From the NCBI GenBank assembly GCA_016282655.1, contig JAEELK010000192.1, positions 1-12,978 on the forward strand: 12,978 nt of DNA, given 5' to 3'. This document shows, one piece after another, positions 1-12,978 of this stretch. Position numbers and translations under genes: made by a program. How positions within the stretch are numbered: the stretch's first letter is position 1; every line of letters starts with the position of its first letter. Below the pieces are notes generated by a model. It saw only the letters and a list, made by a program, of their open reading frames with translations, was not told the origin of the DNA and did not search any database. This DNA is from Bacillota bacterium (GTDB taxonomy: Bacteria > Bacillota > Clostridia > Peptostreptococcales > Anaerovoracaceae).

Positions 1-1044
1 ATCGGTGAAATAACTGTAGTGATCGGAGTAATAGGTGCCGTCCTTCAGCACGGCAGCGACAAGGTCGTCGCCTTCCTCTACGGTATCGACGGTCACGACG
101 TTCGGATTCAACTCATCGTTAGTATAGAATCCGTACGCGCCGTTCTCCACGCCCCAGAACTTCGTGACCCAGCCGTCCTCGGCCGCTGTATAGCCGCCGG
201 GTTTGTAAGTCTCGTGCAGGGCGACCAGCGCTTCGTCGTAGCTCAGTTCACCGTCGGAGTTGAGGTCGGTCACCGTGACCTTCGCCTGCACCAGCGCCAG
301 CACGCCCGCGTTGCTGATCGTTACGTACACGTCCGCAGGATCGGCGGGTTCGGGAGGCGGCAGAAGCTTCTCTACACTCGGGATCGCCAGATAATACTGC
401 GCGGAGGGCGTGCCGCCGTCCGGCTTGACGATCTTCACGGCGGTCGCTTGGCCGCAGTATTCGGTGCTCAGTTCAAAGACGAAGCGGCCGTCTGTCAGGG
501 CATAGTAATCGTCCTCATCGGGTTCCTCGTCCGTGTTCAGCGTGTCCAGATAGAGGCCGGCATAAACGGTCGTATTCTTGGGATAATACGTGACCGTCAC
601 CGTATCTCCATTCTCGCTTATCACGGCAGCTGTTCCCTCCTGGGGAGTGAACATGCCGAAAGCACTTGTCAGGTCTTTTTTGTAGAAGTTGACGTCGTTC
701 CCTTCGTAGTCCAGGGTCAGGGGCGCGTCTTCTTCCGGATCGTCGTCCGCTTCGGCAGCGAACTCGCCTTCCGCTTCGAAGGTCTCTTCTTCAGGCAGGA
801 CCTCTTCCGCGGGTTCCTCCGCGGGTTCTCCCGTGGGTTCTTCTGCGGGTTCCTCCGCAGGTTCTTCCGCAGGTTCTTCCGCGGGTTCCTCCGCAGGTTC
901 TTCCGCAGGTTCTGTGTCTTCGATCTGCTCGACCGCCTCAGCCGGATCATCCGCTTCGTCCAGCTCTGCGGCCCAGACGCCCATCGGCAGCAGACCGATG
1001 ACCATCACAAGTACGAGCAGCCATGACAGCAGCCGTTTTCTCAT
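1..1044 (-). CDS. Secreted acidic repeat protein, putative corrinoid-related surface protein (5' part, continues past the left edge)
   Basis: 348 residues are visible and there is no stop before base 1. The start is the ATG at 1042-1044, with AAAGGAG at 1053-1059, 8 bases upstream. Residues 1-25 are a signal peptide (MRKRLL, hydrophobic core, VWA before the likely cleavage site). Residues 26-108 are a highly acidic low-complexity stalk with nine EPAE-type units (45-80). A beta-rich-looking region follows (about 109-226), then a Pro-rich linker (LLPPPEP) and a second region holding an EF-hand-like loop (D260, N262, D264, G265, L267, E271) and the string GWVTKFWGVENGAYGFY near 291-307. From memory, the latter style occurs in clostridial surface proteins related to DUF4430/transcobalamin-C-terminal-like domains. 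The upstream cobalamin riboswitch supports a corrinoid link. Function, and any cell-wall anchor beyond the edge, are inferred. Secretion is confident; the cobalamin role is moderate. Confidence 0.85.
   Translation of the reverse strand, partial: MRKRLLSWLLVLVMVIGLLPMGVWAAELDEADDPAEAVEQIEDTEPAEEPAEEPAEEPAEEPAEEPAEEPTGEPAEEPAEEVLPEEETFEAEGEFAAEADDDPEEDAPLTLDYEGNDVNFYKKDLTSAFGMFTPQEGTAAVISENGDTVTVTYYPKNTTVYAGLYLDTLNTDEEPDEDDYYALTDGRFVFELSTEYCGQATAVKIVKPDGGTPSAQYYLAIPSVEKLLPPPEPADPADVYVTISNAGVLALVQAKVTVTDLNSDGELSYDEALVALHETYKPGGYTAAEDGWVTKFWGVENGAYGFYTNDELNPNVVTVDTVEEGDDLVAAVLKDGTYYSDHYSYFTD
805..912 (-). repeat. Nine tandem 12-bp units encoding EPAE
   Basis: Nine consecutive in-frame 12-base units code for Glu-Pro-Ala-Glu. 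Only the seventh differs in protein (EPTG). The units differ silently at third positions (CCT/CCC, GCG/GCA, GAA/GAG), so the array is not perfectly homogeneous. It forms part of the acidic stalk between the signal peptide and the folded regions of the secreted protein. Such arrays usually act as extended spacers through the cell wall, and their copy number can change by slippage or recombination without breaking the frame. Confidence 0.95.
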
Positions 1045-1103
1045 GTTCTTTTCTCCTTTCAAATATGCGCCGGGTTTTTGTTTTCGGGGGTGTGCCGGGA
1101 TAC

Positions 1104-1139
1104 AAAAAAGCAGGCCCTCGGCAAATGCCGGAGGCCCGC
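1104..1139 (-). terminator. Intrinsic terminator in the riboswitch leader (likely expression platform)
   Basis: On the minus strand a 13-bp GC-rich stem (1139-1127 with 1122-1110; one mismatch, two G-T wobbles) closes an ATTT loop and is followed by six T (1109-1104). It lies downstream of the cobalamin aptamer and 60 bases before the start codon of the secreted protein gene, within the same leader. That placement fits a ligand-controlled attenuator rather than an end-of-operon terminator, since the preceding gene already has its own terminator at 1398-1435. Confidence 0.85.
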
Positions 1140-1187
1140 AGGAAGACAAAAAAAGGAAAGCATGTCCTGGAGCTGGCATCCATGCAT

Positions 1188-1319
1188 TTCAAGGCAAACG
1201 GCGCGTATCTGACTTATCCTCCCTGGGGAGGCTTCACAGTGCCCTGCGCGCGGGGATTTGCACCCACATTCCGCTTTCCGCGCCTCTCCGAAAGAGAGGC
1301 CGGACCGCCTGCCTGTCCA
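1188..1319 (-). promoter_or_regulatory. Cobalamin riboswitch aptamer
   Basis: Reading the minus strand, the leader shows hallmark cobalamin-riboswitch elements in the right order. GGGTGCAAATCC (its TGCAAATCC part is at 1262-1254) sits in a GTGGG/CCCGC stem-loop. The B12-box-like GGCACTGTGA is at 1243-1234. A CCTCC/GGAGG hairpin (1231-1218) follows, then AAGTCAGATAC (1215-1205). An outer P1-like pairing AGGCA (1314-1310) with TGCCT (1196-1192) closes the fold, and a 7-bp accessory hairpin GCCTCTC/GAGAGGC lies at 1300-1282. At about 130 nt it is short for RF00174, so it could be a compact variant. It begins about 15 bases after the predicted transcription start and is followed by a terminator, so ligand binding probably lowers expression of the secreted protein. 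No covariance-model score was run. Confidence 0.85.
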
Positions 1320-1340
1320 TTATTCATTTATGTATTTTGG

Positions 1341-1369
1341 ATTATATCGCAGATCCGCGTTTTCGTCCA
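1341..1369 (-). promoter_or_regulatory. Promoter of the riboswitch-secreted protein unit
   Basis: TGGACG (1369-1364), a 17-base spacer and a perfect TATAAT (1346-1341) form a housekeeping-sigma promoter on the minus strand. Transcription should start near 1334, just upstream of the riboswitch aptamer. The promoter lies after the terminator of the Na/Pi cotransporter gene, so the secreted protein gene is an independent unit. Confidence 0.8.
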
Positions 1370-1397
1370 GTCATTTTTCCAGATCCTCAGGAAAATG

Positions 1398-1435
1398 CAA
1401 AAGCGGACCGGGGACGGCGCGCCGTCCCCGGTCCG
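1398..1435 (-). terminator. Intrinsic terminator after the Na/Pi cotransporter gene
   Basis: A perfect 32-base palindrome (1404-1435) starts 18 bases after the stop codon of the transporter gene. Transcribed on the minus strand it gives a stem of about 14 bp with a GCGC loop, followed by CTTTTGCATTTT. Its symmetry means it could also act on plus-strand transcripts, though no T run follows on that side. Confidence 0.85.
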
Positions 1436-1452
1436 GATCAGGTTTCGCTCTT

Positions 1453-3084
1453 CTACAGCACCTCGTTGTCCGCGAGGGCGTTGGCGATCTTCAGCGCGTG
1501 GTCGGAGCAGCGCTCCAGATACACGGCCATGTCTGTGAAAATGACGCCGCCCTTGGCACTGCAGGTCTCGTTCATCAGCCGGCGGATGTGGTTGCCGGTG
1601 ATCTCGTCTTTGATGTCGTCCACAGTCTCTTCCAGGTCCTTGGCCTCGGCAAGGCGGTCGAAGTCGTTGTTGTCGAAGATCCAGAAACAGAGCGTGAGCG
1701 AGCGGATCGTTGCAACGGCCATTGTATGCAGCTCCCCGAGCGCCTCCTCGCTGATCGTGGCGCGGCCGCTTTGAAGTATCTCCTCGAACTCCACGATGTT
1801 CTCCGCGTGGTCGGAGATGCGCTCGATGTCGTCCACCGCGCGGATCATGCGGTACAGCCGGTTCAGGTTCCGGGGCGACATGTCCTGCATCCGGAGCTCC
1901 ACGAGCTTGTCCACGATGTCCCTTGCCAGCAGGTCCACCGTCTCCTCGTTGACCTCCACTGTGGCGCGCTTCGCGTCGTTGAGCGTGAAGAAGCAGTCCA
2001 GCGCCTGCTCGAGATTGTTCAGCGCGATATGGCCCATGCGCGAGATCTCCAGCCGTGCCTGCTCCATGGCGAGCGCGGGCGGGATCCGGGACGTCTGGGT
2101 GAGATACACCAGCCGACGCTGCTCCTGCACTTTCGCCTCCTCCTCGCTCACCGGGAGCAGGCGCTCCGACAGCTTCACGATGTAGGACGAAAGCGGCAGC
2201 AGCACGGCCACGGAGATCACCGCGAAGGCGGTGTGGGTGTTGGCGATCTGGCGGGCGACGTTCCCGGGGCTGAGCGCCCGGATCCATTCCAGCACCTGCG
2301 GGAAAGCGGTGATCAGAGCAAGGATCAGGACGGCACGCAGCAGGTTGAACAGCAGGTTCAGGATCGAGCAGCGCCTGCCCTCGCGGTTGGCCGTCAAGCC
2401 GGCGAGGATGTTGGGCATGACGGAGCCGACAGCGGCGCCGATGACCAGGTAAACGGCCGTCTGGTAGGAGAGGATCCCCTGCACGGCGAAGGCCTGGAAG
2501 ATGACGGTCGAGGAGGAGGAACTTTGCAGCAGCGCGGTGAACAGCACGCCGAACAGCACCGACAGGATCGGATTGGACAGCCGGGCCATCATTGCGGCGA
2601 ACGCTTCCGTCTCGGAGAGCGGGGCGATGGCCCTCTTCATCAGCGTCAATCCGACGAACAGCATACCAAAGCCCAGGACAACGTTTCCGATGTCCCGGGC
2701 TTTATGGTTTTTCACAAACAGCGATACGACCGCTCCCGCGAACAGAAGGAACGGAGCGAAAACGCCGATATCGAAGGCGGTGATCTGCGCGGTGATGGTA
2801 GTGCCGATGTTCGCGCCCATGATCACGCCGAGGGCCTGCGCGAGGGACATCATCCCCGACGTGACGAAGCCGATCACCATAACGTCCGTAGCGGACGAGC
2901 TCTGTACGAGCACCGTGATCCCGACGCCGACCAGAACGGACACCAGGCGGCTCTTCCCTGCCTTTTCCAGGATGCCCTTCAGGTTTTCACCGCAAGCGTT
3001 GCGAAGGCCGGTAGACATCACCGTCATCCCGTACAGGAACAGGCCGATGCCCCCGCAGAGAGAGAATATTTCGCTGGCAGTCAT
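1453..3084 (-). CDS. Na/Pi cotransporter family protein with C-terminal PhoU-like domain
   Basis: This 543-residue membrane protein likely imports phosphate (or balances it) with sodium. The first transporter repeat carries QSSSATDVMV (61-70) and GANIGTTITA (90-99). The second carries QSSSSST (187-193). Together they are the paired QSSS motifs of the PF02690 family. Hydrophobic segments fill roughly residues 5-305. Residues from about 340 onward are helical and match the PhoU-like regulatory tail found on bacterial NptA/YjbB-type members (for example HTMAVATIRSL and RCSDHALKIANAL). In the second repeat the usual GANIGTT is replaced by GAAVGSVMPN (216-225). The start ATG has GAAAGGG about 10 bases upstream. 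Two TTTACA repeats lie 70 bases upstream, suggesting phosphate control. Whether it transports phosphate or another anion cannot be told from sequence. Confidence 0.93.
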   Translation of the reverse strand: MTASEIFSLCGGIGLFLYGMTVMSTGLRNACGENLKGILEKAGKSRLVSVLVGVGITVLVQSSSATDVMVIGFVTSGMMSLAQALGVIMGANIGTTITAQITAFDIGVFAPFLLFAGAVVSLFVKNHKARDIGNVVLGFGMLFVGLTLMKRAIAPLSETEAFAAMMARLSNPILSVLFGVLFTALLQSSSSSTVIFQAFAVQGILSYQTAVYLVIGAAVGSVMPNILAGLTANREGRRCSILNLLFNLLRAVLILALITAFPQVLEWIRALSPGNVARQIANTHTAFAVISVAVLLPLSSYIVKLSERLLPVSEEEAKVQEQRRLVYLTQTSRIPPALAMEQARLEISRMGHIALNNLEQALDCFFTLNDAKRATVEVNEETVDLLARDIVDKLVELRMQDMSPRNLNRLYRMIRAVDDIERISDHAENIVEFEEILQSGRATISEEALGELHTMAVATIRSLTLCFWIFDNNDFDRLAEAKDLEETVDDIKDEITGNHIRRLMNETCSAKGGVIFTDMAVYLERCSDHALKIANALADNEVL

Positions 3085-3153
3085 ACGATCTTAACCCTTT
3101 CATCAACTCGGCTGTATCGTATACTCCATACGTCAAACCCGATATCATTCATT

Positions 3154-3170
3154 TGTAAAGTCCATGTAAA
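3154..3170 (-). promoter_or_regulatory. Candidate Pho box (TTTACA direct repeat) before the Na/Pi gene
   Basis: Two identical TTTACA hexamers (3170-3165 and 3159-3154, minus strand) are separated by exactly 5 bases, an 11-base helical repeat. This matches the TT(A/T/C)ACA-N5 design of PhoP-binding sites known from Bacillus subtilis. A weaker TTGACG at 3136-3131 may extend the array. The site lies 70-86 bases upstream of a phosphate-transporter start codon and directly after the previous unit's hairpin. No convincing -35/-10 pair is visible here; TACGAT near 3121-3116 is a possible -10. Confidence 0.5.
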
Positions 3171-3175
3171 GAAGG

Positions 3176-3203
3176 CGTCCCCCCGCCTTTCGGCAGAGGG
3201 ACG
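3176..3203 (-). terminator. Hairpin after the RDD protein gene, probable terminator
   Basis: Starting 8 bases after the RDD gene stop codon, a fully paired 12-bp stem (two G-T wobbles) closes a GAAA tetraloop on the minus strand. It is followed only by CCTTCTTT, a weak U tract, so termination may be partial or the hairpin may mainly protect the 3' end. It separates the sppA-RDD unit from the Na/Pi gene. Confidence 0.65.
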
Positions 3204-3211
3204 TTCAAAGC

Positions 3212-3742
3212 TTATTTTCGGTAGGGTTCGTACCACTGGGCAACAGGGTCCGTCACCTCCCGAATGAGCCGGGGCTGCTGCGGTCCCGGCGTCTCCGGAG
3301 CCGCTTCCACAGGGGTCACCTGAGTGTCGCAGATCCTGTCGTGGAGCGCCCCGTTCTTCGGGTCGGCGATCGCCAGGAAATAACCGATCAGCAGGATGGA
3401 GCTGAGATAGCGGGCGTAGGTCTCGCGGCAGAGGACCGTGAGGAACGTCGGCCGCTCCCCGTTCCGGTCAGTGACGCGCAGGCCCATCGCAAGCTTGCCC
3501 AGCGTGCCGCCGGCGAACCAGGTCAGCAGCACGAAGTAAGCGCAGGACGCCGCCCACAGAAAGATGTCCGTCCAGCTGAACTTGAACAGCACGGCGCGGG
3601 ACAGCGGATCCCCGCCCGCCGAAGCGAACAGTGCGCTGACGCGCGGGATGAACAGCACGACCGCCAGGATCGCGCGATCCATTAAGTACGCCGCGAATCT
3701 CGGCCAGAACCGGGCCGGGCGGACTGCGTCAGTTGTCCGCAT
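3212..3742 (-). CDS. RDD family integral membrane protein
   Basis: The 176-residue protein has the RDD layout. It starts with RFAAYLMDRAIL (R15, D22 on the first membrane helix, about 17-35), followed by a second helix (about 58-78), the loop GGTLGKLAMGLRVTD (78-92), a third helix (about 113-127) and NGALHDRICDTQV (130-142). The C-terminal 34 residues are Pro- and Glu-rich and probably cytoplasmic. Family function is poorly defined; some members affect ion homeostasis, and the domain is often found next to peptidases. The ATG at 3740-3742 lies inside the end of sppA (14-base overlap), which implies translational coupling and co-transcription with that peptidase. Only a weak GGTGG precedes it, consistent with coupling. 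Confidence 0.9.
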   Translation of the reverse strand: MRTTDAVRPARFWPRFAAYLMDRAILAVVLFIPRVSALFASAGGDPLSRAVLFKFSWTDIFLWAASCAYFVLLTWFAGGTLGKLAMGLRVTDRNGERPTFLTVLCRETYARYLSSILLIGYFLAIADPKNGALHDRICDTQVTPVEAAPETPGPQQPRLIREVTDPVAQWYEPYRK

Positions 3743-4733
3743 AAGCCATCACCACCAGCCTGCCGTGCTCCTTCGCAAAGCGGGTCAGTTCCTGCGTGTC
3801 GGACCGCGGCGCAACGCTTTCGATGAAGTTGAACAGGGAATAGACCGGCGAGGTCGCCGGCTCGATCTCATAAAGCACGTCTGTCCCCGCGCGGGAGAGC
3901 ACGTCCTGCTCATATTCCTCGTAACGGCAGATCCCGTCGATGAAACCGGCTTTCAGCGCCTGCCGCGCCGTCATCTCCCGGCCGTCGTCGAGCTCGCGGA
4001 CCCGGTCCTTCGTCATGCCGCGGCCTTCCGCCACGATCTCCAGGAACTGGTCGTAGCTCTCGTCCACGATGGACTGGTAGATCTCCTTCTGCTCGTCCGT
4101 CCAGGGGACGCCCGACATGCCGATGCCCTTGTTCTCGCTGCTTTTGAAGGCGACCTGCTCCACACCGAGCTTCTCAAACAGGCCGGAGAAGTTGTACGCA
4201 GCCATGTACACGCCGATGTTCACGCACAGGCAGTTCCGGTTGGCATAGATCTCGTCGGACGCCATGGCGACGTAGTAGCCGCCGGAGCAGGCCAGCGAAT
4301 CGAAATAACAGTAGATGGGCCGGCCGGTGGCTTTGTAGTCCATGAGCCTGAGATAGAGTTCGTCGCCCGCGTTCATCTCGCCGCCCGGCGAGTCGATGTA
4401 CAGGAGCATACCGACGTTGTTGTCATCCTCGATGAGATCCTTCACGCTCTCCAGAAGGAAATCGTGGTCATAACTCCCCGAGGCGGTAAGAGAGCCGGTC
4501 CCGCCGTTGTCCATGATGGTGCCTTCCACCTTCAGCTTGGCGAGATAAGGCTCCGTCGGGCGGGGCCCGGACGCGGAAGACGTCCCGAACGCGCCGGAGA
4601 TCAAGCTCTCCGCCGAGGAGAGGAACTCCGCACTGCGTTCCCGGGCCTGGATGGCCGTGCGGACGCCCATCCATCCGGTCAGCGCGACCACCGCCAGCGC
4701 AACGATCAGCCAGAGGGTCTTCTTTTTGTTCAT
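3729..4733 (-). CDS. sppA: Signal peptide peptidase SppA, S49 family
   Basis: A 334-residue membrane-anchored serine protease that probably degrades cleaved signal peptides. One N-terminal membrane helix (about 7-24) follows MNKKK. The catalytic core has LLYIDSPGGEMNAGDE (110-125), the nucleophile Ser150 in ACSGGYYVAMASD, and Lys202 in SSENKGIG as the likely general base. The 52-residue spacing equals that of B. subtilis SppA (Ser147/Lys199, recalled). The usual GSIGV is VNIGV here. The single S49 domain and length match Gram-positive SppA. The frame is open further upstream, to 4892, but that would run back through the rpmE terminator. The ATG at 4731-4733 has an excellent GGAAAGGAG and is chosen. 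It lies 28 bases downstream of the rpmE terminator T run, with no obvious promoter between. Confidence 0.95.
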   Translation of the reverse strand: MNKKKTLWLIVALAVVALTGWMGVRTAIQARERSAEFLSSAESLISGAFGTSSASGPRPTEPYLAKLKVEGTIMDNGGTGSLTASGSYDHDFLLESVKDLIEDDNNVGMLLYIDSPGGEMNAGDELYLRLMDYKATGRPIYCYFDSLACSGGYYVAMASDEIYANRNCLCVNIGVYMAAYNFSGLFEKLGVEQVAFKSSENKGIGMSGVPWTDEQKEIYQSIVDESYDQFLEIVAEGRGMTKDRVRELDDGREMTARQALKAGFIDGICRYEEYEQDVLSRAGTDVLYEIEPATSPVYSLFNFIESVAPRSDTQELTRFAKEHGRLVVMAYADN

Positions 4734-4738
4734 GGCGA

Positions 4739-4747
4739 CTCCTTTCC
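4739..4747 (-). promoter_or_regulatory. Ribosome binding site fixing the sppA start
   Basis: GGAAAGGAG ends 5 bases before the ATG at 4731-4733. No such signal precedes the in-frame ATG at 4892, which lies inside rpmE, so the downstream start is preferred. Confidence 0.85.
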
Positions 4748-4760
4748 GAACCAGAAAATG

Positions 4761-4792
4761 AAAAGGGCGGGATGGCCTAAACCGTCCCGCCC
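4761..4792 (-). terminator. Intrinsic terminator of rpmE
   Basis: Twelve bases after the rpmE stop codon, GGGCGGGA (4792-4785) pairs perfectly with TCCCGCCC (4772-4765), extended by CGG/CCA-type inner pairs around a short loop. TTTTCATTTT follows. The sppA ribosome binding site begins only 13 bases beyond the first T run. Confidence 0.85.
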
Positions 4793-4804
4793 GCGTTTCA
4801 GCAA

Positions 4805-5005
4805 TTACTGCAGACCGTACTTCTTGTTGAACTTCTCCACACGGCCGCTGGTATCGACCAGCTTCTGCTTGCCGGTATAGAAGGGATGGCACTTGGAGCA
4901 GATCTCCACGGTGATGTCCTTCTTCGTGGAACCGGTCTCGATCACTTCACCGCAGGCGCAGCGGATGGTGGTGCGCTGATACTTGGGATGGATGCCTTCT
5001 TGCAT
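4805..5005 (-). CDS. rpmE: 50S ribosomal protein L31 (zinc-binding type)
   Basis: The 66-residue protein begins [10 protein letters not shown] and has C16, C18, C36 and C39 (RCACGEV and [12 protein letters not shown]). These are the zinc ligands of the C+ form of L31, a late-assembling large-subunit protein at the intersubunit bridge. Its length fits the family exactly. The ATG at 5003-5005 has AAAGGAG 8 bases upstream. An in-frame ATG at 5065 would add 20 residues foreign to the family and start at the edge of the promoter, so it is rejected. A near-consensus promoter and a hairpin precede it, and a terminator follows, so rpmE appears monocistronic. The C+ form is typically used when zinc is adequate; no C- paralogue is visible here. 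Confidence 0.97.
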
Positions 5006-5029
5006 GGGTGTGACTCCTTTATCATTACT

Positions 5030-5061
5030 GCCCTGAGACCGGTAGACCGGGGATACAAGGC
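5030..5061 (-). promoter_or_regulatory. Possible rpmE leader hairpin
   Basis: In the approximately 60-nt rpmE leader, GCCTTG (5061-5056) can pair with CAGGGC (5035-5030). Inside it CCGG (5050-5047) pairs with CCGG (5042-5039) around a TCTA loop. The structure ends 10 bases before the ribosome binding site. L31 leaders that bind their own product are known in several bacterial groups; whether this one matches any of them was not tested, and the stems are short. Confidence 0.35.
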
Positions 5062-5070
5062 GCAAAGCGG

Positions 5071-5099
5071 ATTATAGCAAAAGGGGTCTGTGAATGCAA
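5071..5099 (-). promoter_or_regulatory. Promoter of rpmE
   Basis: TTGCAT (5099-5094), a 17-base spacer and a perfect TATAAT (5076-5071) lie between the addA stop codon and rpmE. The start point should be near 5064, giving a leader of about 60 nt. The -35 box lies 10 bases from the end of addA. Confidence 0.85.
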
Positions 5100-5108
5100 G
5101 CATTTTTT

Positions 5109-8100
5109 TCAAAGTTCCGGCGGCACGGAGACTTCCTTCGAAAGGGCCGGAAAATACAGCACGCACTCTCGCACCGGCAGGCCGAAGATCCGCCGCAGCG
5201 CGGCGGCGTAGGCGCGGATCTGCGGGGCGTAGAAGGCCGCCCTCTCGCCCACTGTCTCTTCGGTGACGGCGTCGGTCTTGTAGTCGATCACCGTGACGGT
5301 TTCGCCTTCCCGGATGCAGCAGTCCACGATGCCCTGCACCAGCAGCTCGTCCCCACCCGGGACCGGGAAATAGTCTTCCGCCGGCACGAGCAGCGAAAAC
5401 CGGAATTCGCGCCTGGCCTCGTCCGCCGCGAGGATCCTCTTCCCGATGCCGGACGCCGCGAAAGCGCAGATCCCCGCCGGGTCGATGCAGGCGGCCTGTT
5501 CCGGTGTGAGGTGCCCGCGCTCCGTGAGCCGGCGCAGTTCCGCCGCGGCGCCGTCCGCGGTCTGTGCGGCGGCAAGGTCGATGAATTGCAGCGCGGCGTG
5601 CCAGGCGGTGCCGCGCTCCGCGCCGGTGAGCGGCGCGCTCTTCCTTCCGGGCTCCGGGCGTCTGGGCGGCGCCGGCTGCGAGTATTCGTGGAACATCTCA
5701 AGGCTCTCGCTGTCCGGCTCGTCTCTCCCATGCAGGGAGGACGGCGTGATCTTGGACGGCAGCTCCACAGCCGCCTGCCAGGGATAGGTCCAGCCCGGTC
5801 CCTCCAGCCGCCCGGCTTCGCATATATCCGCCGCGGCAGGCATAGCTTCCGGAGCCGCCGGGGCGGGCTCCCCGGACCTCTCTTCCCCGCTGCACAGCGT
5901 GAGCCGGATGGGGCCGTCCTCCTTCAGGACCGCGGCGCGCACCAGCCACATCGCCATGGACCGGTCTTCGGAGAGCAGTTCCGGGGGCAGCGGCGAGATC
6001 TTGTCCTGCTCCGCCTTTTTCCGCAGGGCCTCACCGTCGGCCACTGAGCAGGTGATATAAAGCCGGTTGACGGCGCGCGTCATGGCCACGTAAAGCACGC
6101 GCATCTCCTCGGAGAGCGCCTCGGTCTTCAGCTGTTCGCGGATCGCCCGCCAGGCCAGCGAAGGCCAGGAGATGCCCAGGTCGTTTCGGATCACCCGACC
6201 GCCCAGCCCGTATTCGCGGTGGAGCAGCACCGGCCGGTTGAGGTCCTGCAAGTTGAAGCTCTTCCCCGTGCCAGACAGGAACACGATCGGGTATTCCAGT
6301 CCTTTGGAATGATGGATACTGATGATGCGCACGGCCTTTCCCTGCTCCACGTTCCCGGTCTGCGGTCCTTCGCCGCGCTCCCGCAGCCGCGCCATCCAGG
6401 CAACGAAGCGGAACACGCCGCGGTACCCGTCCTGCTCGAACTGCCGGGCATAGTCGAGCAGCCGGTAAACGTTCTCCCTGCGCGTCTCACCGTCCGGCAT
6501 GGAGGCCAGCAGGGCGAACAGGTCTGAGCGGCCGCAGATCCTCTCCAGCAGACTCGACACGCTCAGGTCCGCCGCCAGGGCACGGCAGGCTTCCAGTTCG
6601 TCCACGAACGCTGCGCATTTCGGCTGCGTCTCCGCGGCCAGCACCAGCGCAGACCAGAAGTCCATGCCGCTTCTCCCGGTACGGACGGCGGCAAGATCGT
6701 CCGCGCGGAAGCCGAATAGCGGCGAGCGAAGCACTGAGATCAGCGGCACGTCCTGCCTCGGGTTATCGATCACCGCCAGGTATGACAGCAGCATCGTGAT
6801 CTCCAGCGATTCGAAAAAGCTGCTGCCCTGCTGCGTCACGGCAGGGATCCCCAGTGCGGTGAGCGCAGCGTGGAAGATGCGGTCCGCGCCGCGGTTGGAG
6901 CGCAGCAGGATGGCGACATCTCCCCAGTCGGCAGGGCGGCTGCCGCTCTCGCAGCTCACGCGGACGCCGCCGTCCACCAGATCGCGGATCTTCCGCGCCA
7001 CGCAGTCCGCCTCGGCGCGCATCCTGTCCGGGCGTTCCGCGGCGCCGTCTCCGCCGTCCTCGTCCGCCGTCTCCGGGGGCGAGATCAGCGCAAGTTCCAC
7101 GCGGGCGCCGCATGGCACGTCCCGCCCTTTCCGGAGCGCGGCGTTCTCGTCGTAATCCAGTTCGCCCAATTCCCCGGACATGATGTTTTCGAACACGTGG
7201 TTGGCGGCGTCCAGGATCTCCGGGGAGGAGCGGAAATTCTCGCGCAGGAAAATGCGCAGCGGCGCTGTTGAGAACTTGTTCTCCTGCGACGCATCGGCCC
7301 ACTCGCCGTACTTTTCAAGAAAGATGGTGGGATCGGCCATGCGGAAGCGGTAGATAGACTGCTTAACGTCGCCCACCATGAACAGCTTCCGCCCGTTATC
7401 GGACAGCAGGGTGAACAGCCTGTCCTGGCAGCGGTTCACATCCTGGTACTCGTCCACCAGCACCTCAAGGAAGCGCCCGGACAGCGACGCCGCCAGCCCG
7501 TTGCTTTTATCCTCCAGCAGGTCCAGCATCATGTGTTCCTGGTCGGAGAAATCCACCACGTTCTGCCGCCGCTTTTCGTTTTCGAAGGCGGTCATCAGCC
7601 GCTGCGTAAGATCCAGCAGGGCCTCCATCGCGGGGCGGGCTGCCTCCATCTCGGCGGCGAGCTCGGCGGAAGAGGCATCGAACGTGCCTTCCACGGCCTT
7701 CCTGACCCAGTCCTTGTATTTGTTCCGGATCCCCTTGATCTCCTCCGTGCGGTCCGGGTCGCGATCGTCCGCTTTTTTGTATCCTTTGGGCGTCGGGAAC
7801 TCCACAGCCCGGGCGGCAGCCGCCGCGGCGTCCCAGTTCCCGCACCCGGCCGCGGCGGCCAGAGCCTCCAATCCCTTCGCTGACGCCGTCATCGAGACGC
7901 CCCAGGAGGCCGCCCCGGTCGCGTTCCCCTTCTGCTCCATCTCGTCTGTCAGGGCGCGCAGCCGCCGCGCGCGGAAGGCCGCCTGCCGCTGAATGTTCTT
8001 CAGCAGCAAAGTGCCCCAGCGGGTCTCTCCCACATCGGCGTCAGCCGAAACGGTCAGCGCGCTTTTCTGCTCCGCCAGCCACTGCCGCGGGTGCTCGTGG

Positions 8101-8642
8101 CTCTGCAGCGTGTTGTGCAGCCGGACCACCAGTTCTTCAAGCTTTCGGTCGTCCCGGCCTCCGCCGAAGGTGTCCGCCAGCGCTCGGAAGCCCGGCAGGG
8201 AGTCTGCCTGCGCGTACGTTTCCTCCAACACCTTCTCCAGCGCGGAGCGCAGGATCGCTTCGGCGCGTTCCGGCTCCACCACCTTGAAGTCCGGCCGAAG
8301 CTCAGCCAGGCGGACGTTCTCGCGCAGGAAGCGGCCGCAGATGCTGTCGATCGTGCCGATGAACGCGCGGCTGCACAGTTCCGGCTGGCGGCGCAGGTGC
8401 CGGTTGCCGGGGTCGGCAGCGATCCGCTCGTTGAGCTTTTTCAGGATCTTGCTGCGCAGGTCGCCGGCGGCGGCGCGGGTATACGTCACCACGCACAGTT
8501 TGTCGATATCCGCCCCCTCGTCCACCAGCCGGAGCAGGCGCTCCACCAGCACGGTGGTCTTGCCGCTGCCTGCCGCCGCGGACACGAGGCGGCTGCTGCC
8601 GCGGCTCTCCGCTGCCAGGTTCTGGTCATTCGTCATTTCCAT
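5109..8642 (-). CDS. addA: ATP-dependent helicase/nuclease subunit A (AddA)
   Basis: This 1177-residue protein is the motor subunit of AddAB, which unwinds and resects DNA double-strand ends for RecA-dependent repair. Superfamily 1A motifs appear in order: Walker A AAAGSGKT (22-29), VVTYTRAAAGDLRSKI (51-66), Walker B DEYQD (397-401), GDVKQSIYRFR (424-434), ENFRSSPEI (468-476), IHHSKGLEYPIVF and LYVAMTRA. The C-terminal RecB-type nuclease has GTAWHAALQ, VQGIVD (D1107), DYKTD (D1120, K1122) and QIRAY (Q1141, Y1145), so it looks active. Length is close to the 1232 of B. subtilis AddA. The ATG at 8640-8642 has GAAAGGAG 9 bases upstream and overlaps addB by 17 bases, indicating coupled translation. 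An ATG two codons later is an alternative. Motif Ia has Arg where Asn is usual (TYTR for TFTN). Confidence 0.97.
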   Translation of the reverse strand: MEMTNDQNLAAESRGSSRLVSAAAGSGKTTVLVERLLRLVDEGADIDKLCVVTYTRAAAGDLRSKILKKLNERIAADPGNRHLRRQPELCSRAFIGTIDSICGRFLRENVRLAELRPDFKVVEPERAEAILRSALEKVLEETYAQADSLPGFRALADTFGGGRDDRKLEELVVRLHNTLQSHEHPRQWLAEQKSALTVSADADVGETRWGTLLLKNIQRQAAFRARRLRALTDEMEQKGNATGAASWGVSMTASAKGLEALAAAAGCGNWDAAAAAARAVEFPTPKGYKKADDRDPDRTEEIKGIRNKYKDWVRKAVEGTFDASSAELAAEMEAARPAMEALLDLTQRLMTAFENEKRRQNVVDFSDQEHMMLDLLEDKSNGLAASLSGRFLEVLVDEYQDVNRCQDRLFTLLSDNGRKLFMVGDVKQSIYRFRMADPTIFLEKYGEWADASQENKFSTAPLRIFLRENFRSSPEILDAANHVFENIMSGELGELDYDENAALRKGRDVPCGARVELALISPPETADEDGGDGAAERPDRMRAEADCVARKIRDLVDGGVRVSCESGSRPADWGDVAILLRSNRGADRIFHAALTALGIPAVTQQGSSFFESLEITMLLSYLAVIDNPRQDVPLISVLRSPLFGFRADDLAAVRTGRSGMDFWSALVLAAETQPKCAAFVDELEACRALAADLSVSSLLERICGRSDLFALLASMPDGETRRENVYRLLDYARQFEQDGYRGVFRFVAWMARLRERGEGPQTGNVEQGKAVRIISIHHSKGLEYPIVFLSGTGKSFNLQDLNRPVLLHREYGLGGRVIRNDLGISWPSLAWRAIREQLKTEALSEEMRVLYVAMTRAVNRLYITCSVADGEALRKKAEQDKISPLPPELLSEDRSMAMWLVRAAVLKEDGPIRLTLCSGEERSGEPAPAAPEAMPAAADICEAGRLEGPGWTYPWQAAVELPSKITPSSLHGRDEPDSESLEMFHEYSQPAPPRRPEPGRKSAPLTGAERGTAWHAALQFIDLAAAQTADGAAAELRRLTERGHLTPEQAACIDPAGICAFAASGIGKRILAADEARREFRFSLLVPAEDYFPVPGGDELLVQGIVDCCIREGETVTVIDYKTDAVTEETVGERAAFYAPQIRAYAAALRRIFGLPVRECVLYFPALSKEVSVPPEL

Positions 8643-11600
8643 GAGCGTCTTCTCCTTTCCCGGCCGCCGCCGTTTTCTTCTCGAGCATATCCCAGAACGC
8701 CTTCGTATCCATGCCGGCCCGGTAGCGGCGTTTGTCCGTCTCCTCGTTGAAATGGCAGGCCTCCGCGTAATCGCAGTAGCGGCAGGCGTTATCGTTCTCT
8801 CCCTTGAACCAGGGATCCGCCGCGATGCTGCCGCGCCGGATCTCCGCAGCCATCTCGCCCAGCGTTTTCTCCACGAACTGCCCCAGTTTCCGGAACTGCC
8901 CATCGTCCGCGATCGAGCCCGTCACGCCGCCGGCTTTTGAGATCTTCACCGGCAGGTACTGCCGGCCGGGTTCGGCCTCCATGGCCCGCAGGACCTCGTC
9001 GCCCGTGCCCCGGAGCAGGAGCCCGCTGCGCTTCAGTTCTTTTTCCTTTCTCTTCTCCGCCTCTTCGGGCGTCACGCGCTTGTCGGCGTTCACCAGCGGC
9101 TCGCGCGCCGGCACGTACAGCACACCGGCCGGGACGATCTCGCCCTTGCCGAAGTATTCCACCCCGACTTTCTGCAGAGCGAACAGATACAGCAGCATCT
9201 GCAGGCTCAGCCCCACGCTGACGTCGCCCAGCTTGAAGTCCTTCGTACCGGACTTATAGTCCACCACACGCAGGAAGAGCCGCCCGTCGTGCTCCCAGCC
9301 GTCCACACGGTCAACGATCCCCGTCAGGATCACCTGCTCGTCCCCCTCGCCGAACAGTGCCGGCGGCAGTCCCTCGGTGCGGCCTAGATCCAGTTCCAGC
9401 GCCAGCGGCCGGAACTGCGAGCCCCGCAGCTCGCGCACCGAGTCCAGCACGATCTTCTTCGCGGCGTCGGCCAGACGGCGGAAGAGATAGCGGAACCGCG
9501 CTGTCTTCTCCCGGAAGCCGCTCAGCTGCTCCTCGGTGAAGCGCGCCGTCCACTCCTCCGTCAGCGCTTCGATCTCCTCGTCTGTCACGGCATCGAATCC
9601 ACCCCGGGCGGAGGTCTCGCGCACCACGTTCTCCAGCAGATAGTGCAGGAAGGTGCCCATCTCCGGCGGCGCGAAGGCCTCCGTTTTCCGCGGCTCCGCC
9701 TTCAGTCCGTAGCGCAGGAAGAAGCGGAACCTGCATTCCGCGGCCGCCTCCGCACGGGAGGCAGTCAGCCGCAGCTCGCGCCCGTACAGACGTTCGGCTG
9801 CGGGGCGGCTCAGCTGCCCGCGGATCTGCGTGCCCGCGGCGCGGAGGCGTTCCATGCGCTCCGGCTCGCCGGGCAGCGAGGCAAAATACGCGCAGGCAGG
9901 CGGATCTCCTGCGCAGGCGAGCTCCCGCGCGGGCGAGAGCGCCTCCCGCCGGGCCGCAGTGAGGTCACCCGGCGCTTCTTTCAGGCCGAACAGCCGCCCC
10001 AGCCGCTCGGCGGGCAGGGCGGGCCTCGTCTCTTTCCCATCGGCGCCGAACAGCGGCCGGCTCACGGTGAGCGTGGCCTCCGGCAGTGTGAACACGTTGT
10101 AGATCAGCGTGAACTCCCGCTGGAGGATATCGTCCGGATCGGCCAGTTCGATGCCCAGGCGGCGGAGCTCCTCGCGCTCGGGATCGTTCAGGATACCGCT
10201 CTCGTCGGACACGCGCGGCAGGCGGTCGTCCGTAGCGCCGAGCACGAACAGGTGCTTCAGGCTGCGCCGGCGCATGCGGTCGAAATCGCCCATCCCCACG
10301 CGGTCGAGCGTTACCGGGATGGATCCTGTGTCGTACTGGCAGAGCACGCGCCGGAACAGCCGCGCGAACGTGCTCTGGTCCATCTCCATGCTGCCCAGCA
10401 CGGCGGCGCACTGCTCCAGCGAAGCGGCCATCTTCTCCCAGAGCTGGCGGTATTCCGCGGCGGTCTGCGCCTCGCCCGCCTCCTCCAGCTCGCCGGCGCG
10501 CTGCTCCAGCCGCTCGGGCAGGGAGATGTCGTCCCAGAGATCCGCGAGCGCGCGGCACTGCTCCGCGGCCGTCACGGCCGCGCGTCCGCGCTCGGCAAAG
10601 CGCTGCAGCGGGGCGGCGATCCGCCGGCGGAGGGCGTTGAGCCTTGCGAGCGCGGCATGGTCCTCGTCCGTCCACTCCTTCACCACGCCGCGGGGATTCT
10701 GACGCCACGGCTCCTCCCGCGTCCAGGCCGTACCGCGCAGGCCCCAAAGCAGCACGTAGTTCTCCAGCTCGTCCCGCTCTTCCAGTGTGATCTCCGGCAG
10801 GCCGGTCTTCAGATAGGTGAACATGCTCTCGTAGCTCCATCCGTCCTCCAGCAGTTCGAAGGCGGCGTTCACCAGCGTGGGCAGAGGTTTGGAAAGGATG
10901 TCCGTTTTCACGGAGCTGTAAAAAGGCACCTCATAGCGGCGGAAGGTCTCTTCCAGCGTACCGCGCAGATCGTCGAAGCCGCGCACAGCCACTGCCACGT
11001 CCCGCCAGCGGCAGCCCGTCTCCCGCACGATGCGGCGGATGCTCCCGGCAGCCAGCTCGCATTCTGCCGCGGGGGTCGGCGCGGTCAGCAGGCGGACCCT
11101 GCCGCAGGGGTCGGCCGACGCTTCGGACCAGTCGAACAGATGCGCCTCAAGGAAGCCGATCGGGTCTTCCTCCCCCCGGCCGGGCAGCGTTTTCACCTCT
11201 ATGCTCACGCCGTCCTCTTCGGCGAGGCGGCGCAGGCTCTGCCCCGCCTCGCGTGAGAGCCGGAACACGTTGTCCCCGCCGTCCAGGCCGTCGCAGGTCA
11301 GGCAGGCCGTGCACTCGCCTGTGAGCGTGAGTTCGCGGATCACGGCGCGCTCCTGCGCGGTAAAATCCGTGAACCCGTCGATATACACGTGCGCCCCGCG
11401 CAGGAACGTGCAGGCGGGGATCTGCTCCGCCAGGATGTCCAGCCTGGACACGCTTCCCAGCCCGCTGCGCTCCTCCACCGCGTCCAGCGCCTCGCGCAGC
11501 AGCGCGAGATCCGAAAGCTTCTGCGCCAGCATGCCCTTCGAGTGCGCCGCCGCCTCGCGCAGGAGGGCGCTGTCCGCCTTCCCCTGCCGCAGCTCGTCCA

Positions 11601-11970
11601 GCGTCTTCAGAAGCATCTCCGCCGTTTCGGGGTTCCGGGCCGCGCCGCCGTACACGGCAAGGCCGCCCTCCGCCGTTTCCAGCGCGAGCGACATCTGCAG
11701 GATCCGTCCGCCGGCGTCCGCGAAGCGCCGCGCGCTGCCGCCGACCTCGAGCGACACATAATGCGCGAGCCGGGAGAAGGAGAGCACCTCCGCGTACAGG
11801 CTCATCGTGTCCCCGCAGCGGCGCGCGAGCTCGCGCTCGGCCTCGTGGCTGTACTGCTCGGGCACGATGAGATAATTCCCGCCCTCGCGCCGCGCGGCAC
11901 GTTCGGCGATCTCGCCGAGGATGAGGCCGGTCTTGCCGGACCCCGCCCGGCCAAGGATAAAACGCAGCAT
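8626..11970 (-). CDS. addB: ATP-dependent helicase/deoxyribonuclease subunit B (AddB)
   Basis: The 1114-residue partner of AddA, with an N-terminal Walker A (GRAGSGKT, 7-14) followed by LIVPEQYSHEAE, the usual opening of AddB. The later helicase motifs are degenerate, as in the family, whose helicase-like part serves Chi recognition rather than unwinding. The C-terminal nuclease has GTFLHYLLE, GIVDRVDG (D887), VDYKSGTK (D904, K906) and LQMLLY. Four cysteines for the [4Fe-4S] staple are present: C746 (ECRFRFF) and C1063, C1066, C1072 (CRYCDYAEAC). Length is slightly below the 1166 of B. subtilis. The ATG at 11968-11970 has GGAGGG 6 bases upstream. The frame stays open to 12150, but those residues are unlike the family and run into the divergent promoter region. 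It is the first gene of the addB-addA pair. Confidence 0.97.
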   Translation of the reverse strand: MLRFILGRAGSGKTGLILGEIAERAARREGGNYLIVPEQYSHEAERELARRCGDTMSLYAEVLSFSRLAHYVSLEVGGSARRFADAGGRILQMSLALETAEGGLAVYGGAARNPETAEMLLKTLDELRQGKADSALLREAAAHSKGMLAQKLSDLALLREALDAVEERSGLGSVSRLDILAEQIPACTFLRGAHVYIDGFTDFTAQERAVIRELTLTGECTACLTCDGLDGGDNVFRLSREAGQSLRRLAEEDGVSIEVKTLPGRGEEDPIGFLEAHLFDWSEASADPCGRVRLLTAPTPAAECELAAGSIRRIVRETGCRWRDVAVAVRGFDDLRGTLEETFRRYEVPFYSSVKTDILSKPLPTLVNAAFELLEDGWSYESMFTYLKTGLPEITLEERDELENYVLLWGLRGTAWTREEPWRQNPRGVVKEWTDEDHAALARLNALRRRIAAPLQRFAERGRAAVTAAEQCRALADLWDDISLPERLEQRAGELEEAGEAQTAAEYRQLWEKMAASLEQCAAVLGSMEMDQSTFARLFRRVLCQYDTGSIPVTLDRVGMGDFDRMRRRSLKHLFVLGATDDRLPRVSDESGILNDPEREELRRLGIELADPDDILQREFTLIYNVFTLPEATLTVSRPLFGADGKETRPALPAERLGRLFGLKEAPGDLTAARREALSPARELACAGDPPACAYFASLPGEPERMERLRAAGTQIRGQLSRPAAERLYGRELRLTASRAEAAAECRFRFFLRYGLKAEPRKTEAFAPPEMGTFLHYLLENVVRETSARGGFDAVTDEEIEALTEEWTARFTEEQLSGFREKTARFRYLFRRLADAAKKIVLDSVRELRGSQFRPLALELDLGRTEGLPPALFGEGDEQVILTGIVDRVDGWEHDGRLFLRVVDYKSGTKDFKLGDVSVGLSLQMLLYLFALQKVGVEYFGKGEIVPAGVLYVPAREPLVNADKRVTPEEAEKRKEKELKRSGLLLRGTGDEVLRAMEAEPGRQYLPVKISKAGGVTGSIADDGQFRKLGQFVEKTLGEMAAEIRRGSIAADPWFKGENDNACRYCDYAEACHFNEETDKRRYRAGMDTKAFWDMLEKKTAAAGKGEDAHGNDE
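8652..8658 (-). promoter_or_regulatory. Ribosome binding site of addA inside addB
   Basis: AAAGGAG lies 9 bases before the addA ATG and within the last codons of addB. It sets the addA start at 8642 rather than the longer open frame reaching 8903, which would overlap addB by nearly 280 bases. Confidence 0.85.
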
Positions 11971-12122
11971 GGGATGCCCTCCGTCCGTTCGTCTGTTCCC
12001 GGCGCGATGCGCCACGGGACCTGTGTTCTTGTCCGCTGTACCTATCCTACTCCCATGAAAGGGATATATACGGGACTGTTGTTGTGCTCCGACCGTTTTT
12101 TGCGTCGGCGAAGCCTTAGCCC

Positions 12123-12151
12123 TTGCAAGGAAGGAACTGCCGTGATACAAT
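12123..12151 (+). promoter_or_regulatory. Promoter of glyS
   Basis: TTGCAA (12123-12128), a 17-base spacer and TACAAT (12146-12151) form a good housekeeping-sigma promoter. Transcription should start near 12158, leaving a leader of only about 45 nt. Confidence 0.8.
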
Positions 12152-12167
12152 ACGCGGGTATTTCATG

Positions 12168-12191
12168 CTCCGCGGCAGCCGGCCGCGGGAG
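12168..12191 (+). promoter_or_regulatory. GC-rich hairpin abutting the glyS ribosome binding site
   Basis: CTCCGCGG (12168-12175) can pair with CCGC-G-GGAG (12183-12191), giving 8 bp with one bulged G and a 7-base loop. It ends at the first base of the Shine-Dalgarno region (AAAGGA, 12192-12197). It may tune translation or simply fold the leader; no T run follows, so it is not a terminator. Confidence 0.4.
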
Positions 12192-12203
12192 AAAGGAAAA
12201 AAT

Positions 12204-12978
12204 ATGAACGCCAGCGAAAAAACCATGGAGAAGATCGTGAACCTCTGCAAAGGCCGCGGGTATGTATACCCCTCCAGCGAGATCTACGGAGGCCTTTCCA
12301 ACAGCTGGGACTTCGGTCCGCTCGGCGCGGAGCTGAAGAACAACGTGAAAAAGGCCTGGTGGAAGAAGTTCGTGCAGGAGAATCCCTACAACGTCGGCCT
12401 GGACTCCGCCATCCTGATGAACTCCCAGGTGTGGATGGCCTCGGGTCACGTGGTGAACTTCAACGATCCTCTCATCGACTGCAAAAGCTGCAAAATGCGC
12501 CATCGCGCGGACAAGCTGATCGAGGACTGGCTCCTCGCCAATCCCGAGGACGGCGTCATCGTGGAAGCCATGACCAACGACGAGATGGTGGACTTCATCC
12601 AGACCCGCCGCATTCCCTGCCCGGGCTGCGGCAAGACCGACTTCACCGGGATCCGGAAGTTCAACCTGATGTTCAAGACCCACATCGGCGTCACGGAAGA
12701 CAATACCACCGAGGTCTATCTCCGTCCCGAGACCGCGCAGGGCATTTTCGTGAACTTTGCCAACGTGCAGCGCACCACCCGCCGGAAGATCCCCTTCGGC
12801 ATCTGCCAGATCGGCAAGAGCTTCCGCAACGAGATCACGCCCAAGAACTTCATCTTCCGCGTGCGCGAGTTCGAGCAGATGGAGCTTGAGTTCTTCTGCG
12901 AGCCGGATACCGACCTGGAGTGGTTCGCCTACTGGCGCAACTACTGCCACAAGTGGCTGACGGACCTCGGCATGAAGG
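12204..12978 (+). CDS. glyS: Glycyl-tRNA synthetase, single-chain class II type (5' part, cut by the window end)
   Basis: 258 residues are visible of a family usually about 460 long. The enzyme charges tRNA-Gly in the cytoplasm. Class II features are clear: the N-terminal [14 protein letters not shown] and WDFGPLG (35-41), [13 protein letters not shown] (173-185), and motif 2 [18 protein letters not shown] (208-225) with the ATP-binding arginines. C93, C96, C139 and C142 (DCKSC and PCPGCGK) form a likely zinc knuckle in the insertion domain, as in the bacterial/archaeal-eukaryotic alpha2 type; the alpha/beta GlyQ-GlyS type is excluded. The ATG at 12204 has AAAGGA 6 bases upstream. It is transcribed divergently from addB by its own promoter, with no T-box in the leader. 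Nothing appears damaged before the edge. Confidence 0.97.

Follow-up and report, generated by a model that had tools for sequence, protein, structure and literature searches.

Burroughs et al. (2007) defined the soluble-ligand-binding beta-grasp (SLBB) superfamily and, in the accessible sections of that paper (PMC1796856), placed transcobalamin in one clade with surface proteins of low-GC Gram-positive bacteria, described operons that include CbiO/CbiQ-like genes, and suggested a role in B12 scavenging. In Bacteroides, the surface B12 binders are BtuG and BtuH; BtuH loci contain cobamide transport genes and riboswitches, and a Firmicutes btuH homologue lies near a cobamide transporter of the energy-coupling factor (ECF) type (PMC6977713, PMC8941943, accessible sections). 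Here, we analyze a 12,978-nucleotide (nt) stretch of DNA from a gut-type Bacillota bacterium of the family Anaerovoracaceae (assembly GCA_016282655.1, contig JAEELK010000192.1, positions 1 to 12,978; the window is this whole stretch), in which a minus-strand gene encodes P0001, a probable bacterial B12-catching protein under an apparent B12-sensing RNA switch. For its C-terminal domain, the predicted fold resembles that of the domain with which human transcobalamin and intrinsic factor grip B12.

Overall, we consider it likely, and hold this with some confidence, that a compact, transcription-terminating cobalamin riboswitch controls a secreted, probably wall-associated protein for extracellular corrinoid capture. 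The computed part of this explanation consists of the riboswitch identity, the structural resemblance of the domain models, and the genomic association with riboswitches and transporters.

The P0001 leader and its compact riboswitch-like element

The original prediction, made from the sequence alone, described a complete minus-strand leader with a promoter, aptamer motifs, a terminator, and a strong ribosome binding site, and all of these parts are borne out at 1369-1042. In particular, GGGTGCAAATCC, GGCACTGTGA, and AAGTCAGATAC are all found on the minus strand within this range, and the core motifs and B12 box of RF00174 are kept in the order GGGTGCAAATCC, ACTGTGA, AAGTCAGATAC. The assignment to the cobalamin riboswitches holds as a match over the full length of the RF00174 model (1-189), with 28.7 bits and an expectation value (E) of 8.5e-6 when a 261-nt stretch is scanned alone; it falls short in score, missing the curated gathering cut-off of 31.5 bits by 2.8 bits. 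RF00174 scans of the whole window and of the genome do not report the element. These misses are put down to its compact form, the search filters, and the database size, whose contributions are not separated. Window matches to RF00520 (E = 0.32) and RF01838 (E = 0.76) were rejected as chance-level.

The spacing from ACTGTGA to AGTC is 19 nt in the window element. Among 32 riboswitches of relatives, 19 are measurable by a text pattern; the spacing is 66-101 nt in 17 of them and 19 nt in locus L085, with one artefact value. Because compact elements before homologous genes elsewhere also score low with RF00174 (about 22-48 bits), the window element is labelled a compact cobalamin-riboswitch-like element, just under the Rfam cut-off. 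Further, a covariance model (R1) was trained on 11 compact elements from other genomes, leaving the window element out; across the 12,978 bases, at E up to 10, it gives a single match, at 1265-1198 on the minus strand (13.6 bits, E = 0.022). A text pattern for a second riboswitch of compact form found none in the same genome.

Calculations with RNAfold, run with no shuffle control, indicate two alternative partners for the terminator 5′ arm (1139-1127): without the 3′ arm it pairs with 1185-1172, and once the 3′ arm is present with 1122-1110. Such exclusive antiterminator and terminator pairing suggests an OFF switch. At low intracellular cobalamin, the strand at 1185-1172 would pair with the terminator 5′ arm and allow read-through; cobalamin on the aptamer would let the terminator at 1139-1104 form, shutting the gene. 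The stem of this hairpin has one mismatch, and a simple terminator scan that demands an unbroken stem missed it. One promoter-like pair was found at 1369-1341, compared to a mean of 0.2 in shuffled sequence, and a strong hairpin (1435-1404) separates the upstream Na/Pi-cotransporter gene from the riboswitch unit. The sub-threshold score, together with the silence of the window and genome scans, could also mean that the element is a degenerate, non-functional relic and that the gene is expressed constitutively; with core motifs intact, an exclusive antiterminator/terminator pair predicted, and compact low-scoring forms preceding homologous genes in other genomes, this is the least probable reading, and we give it almost no credence.

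Predicted folds of the P0001 domains

The AlphaFold2 (AF2) model of domain B (pLDDT 87.4, pTM 0.83) has a helix at 36-47, strands at 52-54 and 60-63, and then a strand at 70-75 (model numbering). In this predicted beta-grasp fold, the helix is followed by an inserted beta-hairpin, as in the transcobalamin-like SLBB clade, and the best matches of the model by Foldseek and VIA are mammalian cobalamin binders, namely transcobalamin-type beta domains; in structural alignments, its identity to animal cobalamin binders is 10-18%. A sequence search of the PDB with domain B gave only intimin (E = 2.1), and the transcobalamin resemblance therefore rests on predicted structure. On that resemblance, we infer that domain B binds a corrinoid. 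The EF-hand-like loop of the original prediction (DLNSDGELSYDEA) is not a separate module; it is the loop that connects strand and helix in the transcobalamin-like domain. At E 0.001, a small profile of domain B matches 1440 of the 7997 entries that it scored, and the best 120 of the 1440 all carry the source name 'hypothetical protein'. For P0001, matches to DUF4859 (E = 0.019) and PT (E = 0.0006) stayed under the Pfam cut-offs and were set aside.

For domain A, the best VIA neighbours of the model are heme-binding NEAT domains; the Pfam NEAT family is not matched by P0001 at E up to 1. The domain carries adjacent invariant tyrosines (QYYL) close to its last strand, and it shares a chain with a CbiK cobalt-chelatase domain in two relatives, P0242 and P0243. 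A protein could accordingly be imagined that scavenges heme or a cobalt-tetrapyrrole precursor and is merely co-regulated with B12 metabolism, in which heme or a cobalt-porphinoid would bind to domain A and be processed at the surface by CbiK-like partners, leaving domain B a structural role. The NEAT neighbours and the CbiK chains fit this alternative. Control by a cobalamin riboswitch does not, nor do the domain-B relatives that lack domain A and adjoin ECF genes behind the same riboswitch type; moreover, the QYYL tyrosines of domain A stand in place of the heme motif YxxxY. We regard the alternative as unlikely and prefer corrinoid capture.

Fusion of CbiK also involves domain B, on one chain in the protein at L077:6483-11267. 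By inspection, both P0242 and the L077 protein start with signal-like stretches, and the chelatase may therefore be extracellular; the start of P0243 is missing. Domains A and B occur together in 11 of 244 proteins examined, P0001 counted, and a search for domain A in 80 named Clostridia loci found none, and the A-B fusion is therefore a minority architecture. A search of the window's own genome for more proteins with domain A or B gave two weak matches only (E = 1.7e-4 and 0.12).

Table 1. Positions of the features of the P0001 gene and its leader in the window.
Feature	Position	Strand	Basis
Secreted surface protein P0001, 348 residues visible, open at contig end	1..1044	-	open reading frame (ORF)
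Predicted signal peptide, about residues 1-26	967..1044	-	sequence inspection, no signal-peptide program
EPAE repeat stalk, residues 46-79	808..909	-	PF04886 PT repeat, below cut-off
Domain A, residues 111-227, NEAT-like model	364..714	-	predicted structure
Domain B, residues 237-348, transcobalamin beta-domain-like	1..336	-	AF2 model, Foldseek and VIA matches
Ribosome binding site AAAGGAG, 8 nt before ATG at 1044	1053..1059	-	sequence
Intrinsic terminator GCGGGCCTCCGGC-ATTT-GCCGAGGGCCTGC, then six T	1104..1139	-	RNA fold
Antiterminator strand	1172..1185	-	RNAfold of transcription intermediate, without shuffle control
Compact cobalamin riboswitch aptamer	1183..1324	-	RF00174 match and compact model R1 match at 1265-1198
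B12-box-like AAGTCAGATAC	1205..1215	-	sequence, R1 model
Conserved core GGGTGCAAATCC	1254..1265	-	sequence, R1 model
Sigma-70-type promoter, TGGACG (1369-1364), 17-nt spacer, TATAAT (1346-1341)	1341..1369	-	10/12 consensus matches
Terminator-like hairpin of upstream Na/Pi-PhoU gene	1404..1435	-	14-pair stem, T-rich tail

Riboswitches and importers beside homologous genes

Within the family, 22 of 197 genomes searched have a homologue, the window's own included. Outside that genome, the 31 match places correspond to 27 ORFs, and the DNA surrounding all 27 was read. For 15 of them, a riboswitch at the Rfam cut-off is found 13-331 nt upstream (start codons were set by rule, making the distances approximate), where the chance of a same-strand riboswitch so close is estimated at about 0.04% per gene from 102 riboswitch matches in 21 genomes (about 43 Mb). 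For a further six, the riboswitch is 769-7298 nt upstream on the same strand, which fits operons and is no proof of them. Small lipoprotein-like proteins that are mostly domain B stand directly behind cobalamin riboswitches in L071, L075, and L089 (lipobox by inspection), and one locus, L092 (G126:C4:54407-56660), has three cobalamin riboswitches on one strand at a spacing of about 1 kb.

After L091 was dropped as a weak match (E = 3.6e-4), the fetched stretch contains BtuF-, BtuC-, or BtuD-like genes at six of the eight confident domain-A loci of the family; the two exceptions are a locus truncated at its contig start and a locus where no such gene was found. On contig C228 of the window's own genome, consecutive genes encode CbiK (cut), a lipoprotein with domain C, proteins like BtuF, BtuC, and BtuD, and CbiD; contig C97 carries an incomplete MetH-like corrinoid enzyme. 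Domain C, a third uncharacterised domain ('MFK...' type) with no Pfam family at cut-off in the proteins scanned, recurs beside btuF-like genes (L108:810-1757, and also L069, L072, and L073). The L077 fusion led us to consider C228, from cbiK onward, as the continuation of the window gene; both contigs end inside genes, and there is no sign of joining. A DUF3800-XI RNA match (48.1 bits) was seen in this genome at L109:3989-4037 on the minus strand.

The 80 named Clostridia loci are the best 80 of 170 relatives from one peptide pattern and not a random sample. At E up to 0.1, R1 gives exactly one match in 57 of these 80; every match is on the same strand as the gene and precedes the domain match by 151-823 nt, with none elsewhere in the 809 kb of named loci; leaving out the ten loci that trained R1, the count is 47 of 70. 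The Rfam model was run on the genomes of 38 loci, picked for full flank, and RF00174 matches somewhere in 31 of these genomes at E 0.01. Contig numbers in these outputs are not tied to accessions, and matches were therefore placed by coordinates and strand only, which puts one 181-753 nt before the domain match in 20 of the 38. By similarity search over about 12 kb or less each, the neighbours of the 80 domain-B genes include EcfT-like genes at 64 loci, EcfA-like at 60 (a count that takes in a few other ABC ATPases), toroid-type at 54, and EcfS-like at 51. Two loci were checked by Pfam, L165 and L192; in both, DUF4430 is found in the gene after the domain-B gene (E = 2.8e-16 and 2.1e-18), together with alpha/alpha-toroid matches below cut-off, and the EcfT-like gene of L165 (Ruminococcus flavefaciens 007c) matches CbiQ. 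For example, L135 (R. flavefaciens YL228, 5681-11812) and many of the loci L113-L192 have a cobalamin riboswitch, a domain-B surface protein, a toroid/DUF4430-type protein, and EcfT-, EcfA-, and EcfS-like genes. This recurring gene order looks like a bacterial intrinsic-factor operon.

With these riboswitch and importer neighbours, and with a domain B model nearest to mammalian cobalamin binders, the originally suggested corrinoid-scavenging surface factor gains support, and its ligand binding is predicted. P0001 would leave the cell via its signal peptide and be held outward on the EPAE stalk, where the transcobalamin-like domain B, and perhaps also the NEAT-like domain A, would bind corrinoid and pass it to a membrane importer; the candidate is encoded by the btuF-btuC-btuD-like cluster that also includes cbiK and cbiD on contig C228. 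The long multidomain relatives bear SLH, CWB2, LysM, and choline-binding-type repeats (Pfam), and some have LPXTG-like tails (by inspection or name), all of which would suit a surface adhesin or structural protein of beta-grasp and Ig-like modules for which B12 is only a habitat cue. That proposal does not account for loci that have BtuFCD-like or ECF importers, for the small lipoprotein-like relatives, or for the specific transcobalamin resemblance, and we judge it very improbable.

Several observations weigh against corrinoid capture under riboswitch control. The contig starts at window base 1, inside the P0001 gene, which is cut there, leaving P0001 as the only target in view and any gene downstream of it out of sight. 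No Foldseek match of domain B reached E 0.001; domain B in P0001 has no Pfam match, DUF4430 (PF14478) included, and DUF4430 is weak in one of eight scanned relatives (E = 0.046; 14.6 bits against a cut-off of 23.8). In animal cobalamin binders, the toroid contributes much of the B12 binding site (PMC1796856, accessible sections); it is absent from the Pfam domains listed for a set of 18 homologues, and Pfam did not detect it in the visible part of P0001. The BtuC- and BtuD-like proteins are below the NCBIfam equivalog cut-offs, the best BtuD model being FecE; their names are therefore given by family and context, and a corrinoid substrate is presumed. Beyond the missed RF00174 cut-off, the R1 E-value for the window element is modest, and the fold of the leader exceeds shuffles only moderately (z-score -2.06, with 7 of 200 shuffles doing equally well); taken alone, its folding energy is weak evidence for a riboswitch. 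R1 has no match in 23 of the 80 named loci (two with <250 nt upstream of the domain match), and 6 of the 27 homologues have no riboswitch at the Rfam cut-off (one cut at the contig start, one with 225 nt upstream). Cobalamin riboswitches occur in 149 of the 197 family genomes, and therefore only adjacency counts as evidence. The single same-genus genome sampled gave no homologue. Finally, ligand binding, the direction of regulation, and hand-over to the importer are what we infer beyond the computed parts.

A broader proposal is tentative, and we lean slightly away from it: gut Clostridia might run an Isd-like corrinoid relay, in which B12 would be caught at the wall by transcobalamin-type beta domains together with NEAT-like domains that had switched from heme to cobamides. 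Cobalamin riboswitches would control this capture, and the B12 would be handed to the domain-C lipoprotein and a BtuFCD importer or, in a sister branch, to a toroid and DUF4430 'bacterial intrinsic factor' and an ECF importer.

Comparison with known systems

The accessible sections of three cobalamin riboswitch surveys (PMC3766115, PMC2211319, and PMC11089507) do not name the P0001 family. Those of PMC2211319 mention cobalamin riboswitches that precede genes without a known function; two of these are alike, and they may or may not belong to the P0001 family. In open-access literature, with few subscription papers and no preprints, neither riboswitch control of the P0001 family nor a cobalamin-binding NEAT domain is named in the titles or abstract starts among the matches listed.

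The Isd system of NEAT domains, which binds heme and is under iron control, shares with P0001 the idea of a Gram-positive surface relay, and the domain A model is nearest to NEAT domains; P0001 differs in lacking a NEAT Pfam match and in standing under a cobalamin riboswitch. Like P0001, BtuG and BtuH are surface proteins for corrinoid capture; unlike it, BtuG is a beta-propeller and BtuH binds via its own C-terminal domain (PMC6977713, PMC8941943, accessible sections). No BtuH structure is among the matches listed for domain B, and the Firmicutes BtuH homologues were not compared with it. In contrast to animal transcobalamin, intrinsic factor, and haptocorrin, P0001 is bacterial and riboswitch-linked, with no toroid detected in its visible part; the gene next to domain B in L165 and L192 has the same domain pair (toroid and DUF4430) as animal intrinsic factor.

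The closest system is the transcobalamin-like SLBB clade, with a secreted beta-grasp domain, a hairpin after the helix, relatives in CbiO/CbiQ-like operons, and predicted B12 scavenging (PMC1796856, accessible sections, where the word riboswitch is absent). The original prediction had called such a factor poorly described. Bacterial B12-capture surface proteins are a hardly studied class, and the prediction of such factors for Gram-positive bacteria dates from 2007 (PMC1796856). P0001 departs from the SLBB clade in lacking a DUF4430 match and in its fusion with a NEAT-like domain, and BtuFCD-like genes and CbiK adjoin some of its relatives. Moreover, bacteria of the clade usually lack key B12 synthesis enzymes (PMC1796856, accessible sections), whereas the window's genome has cbiD and cbiK. 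Riboswitch control, a branch invisible to Pfam, and the NEAT-like fusion thus look like additions to the known prediction.
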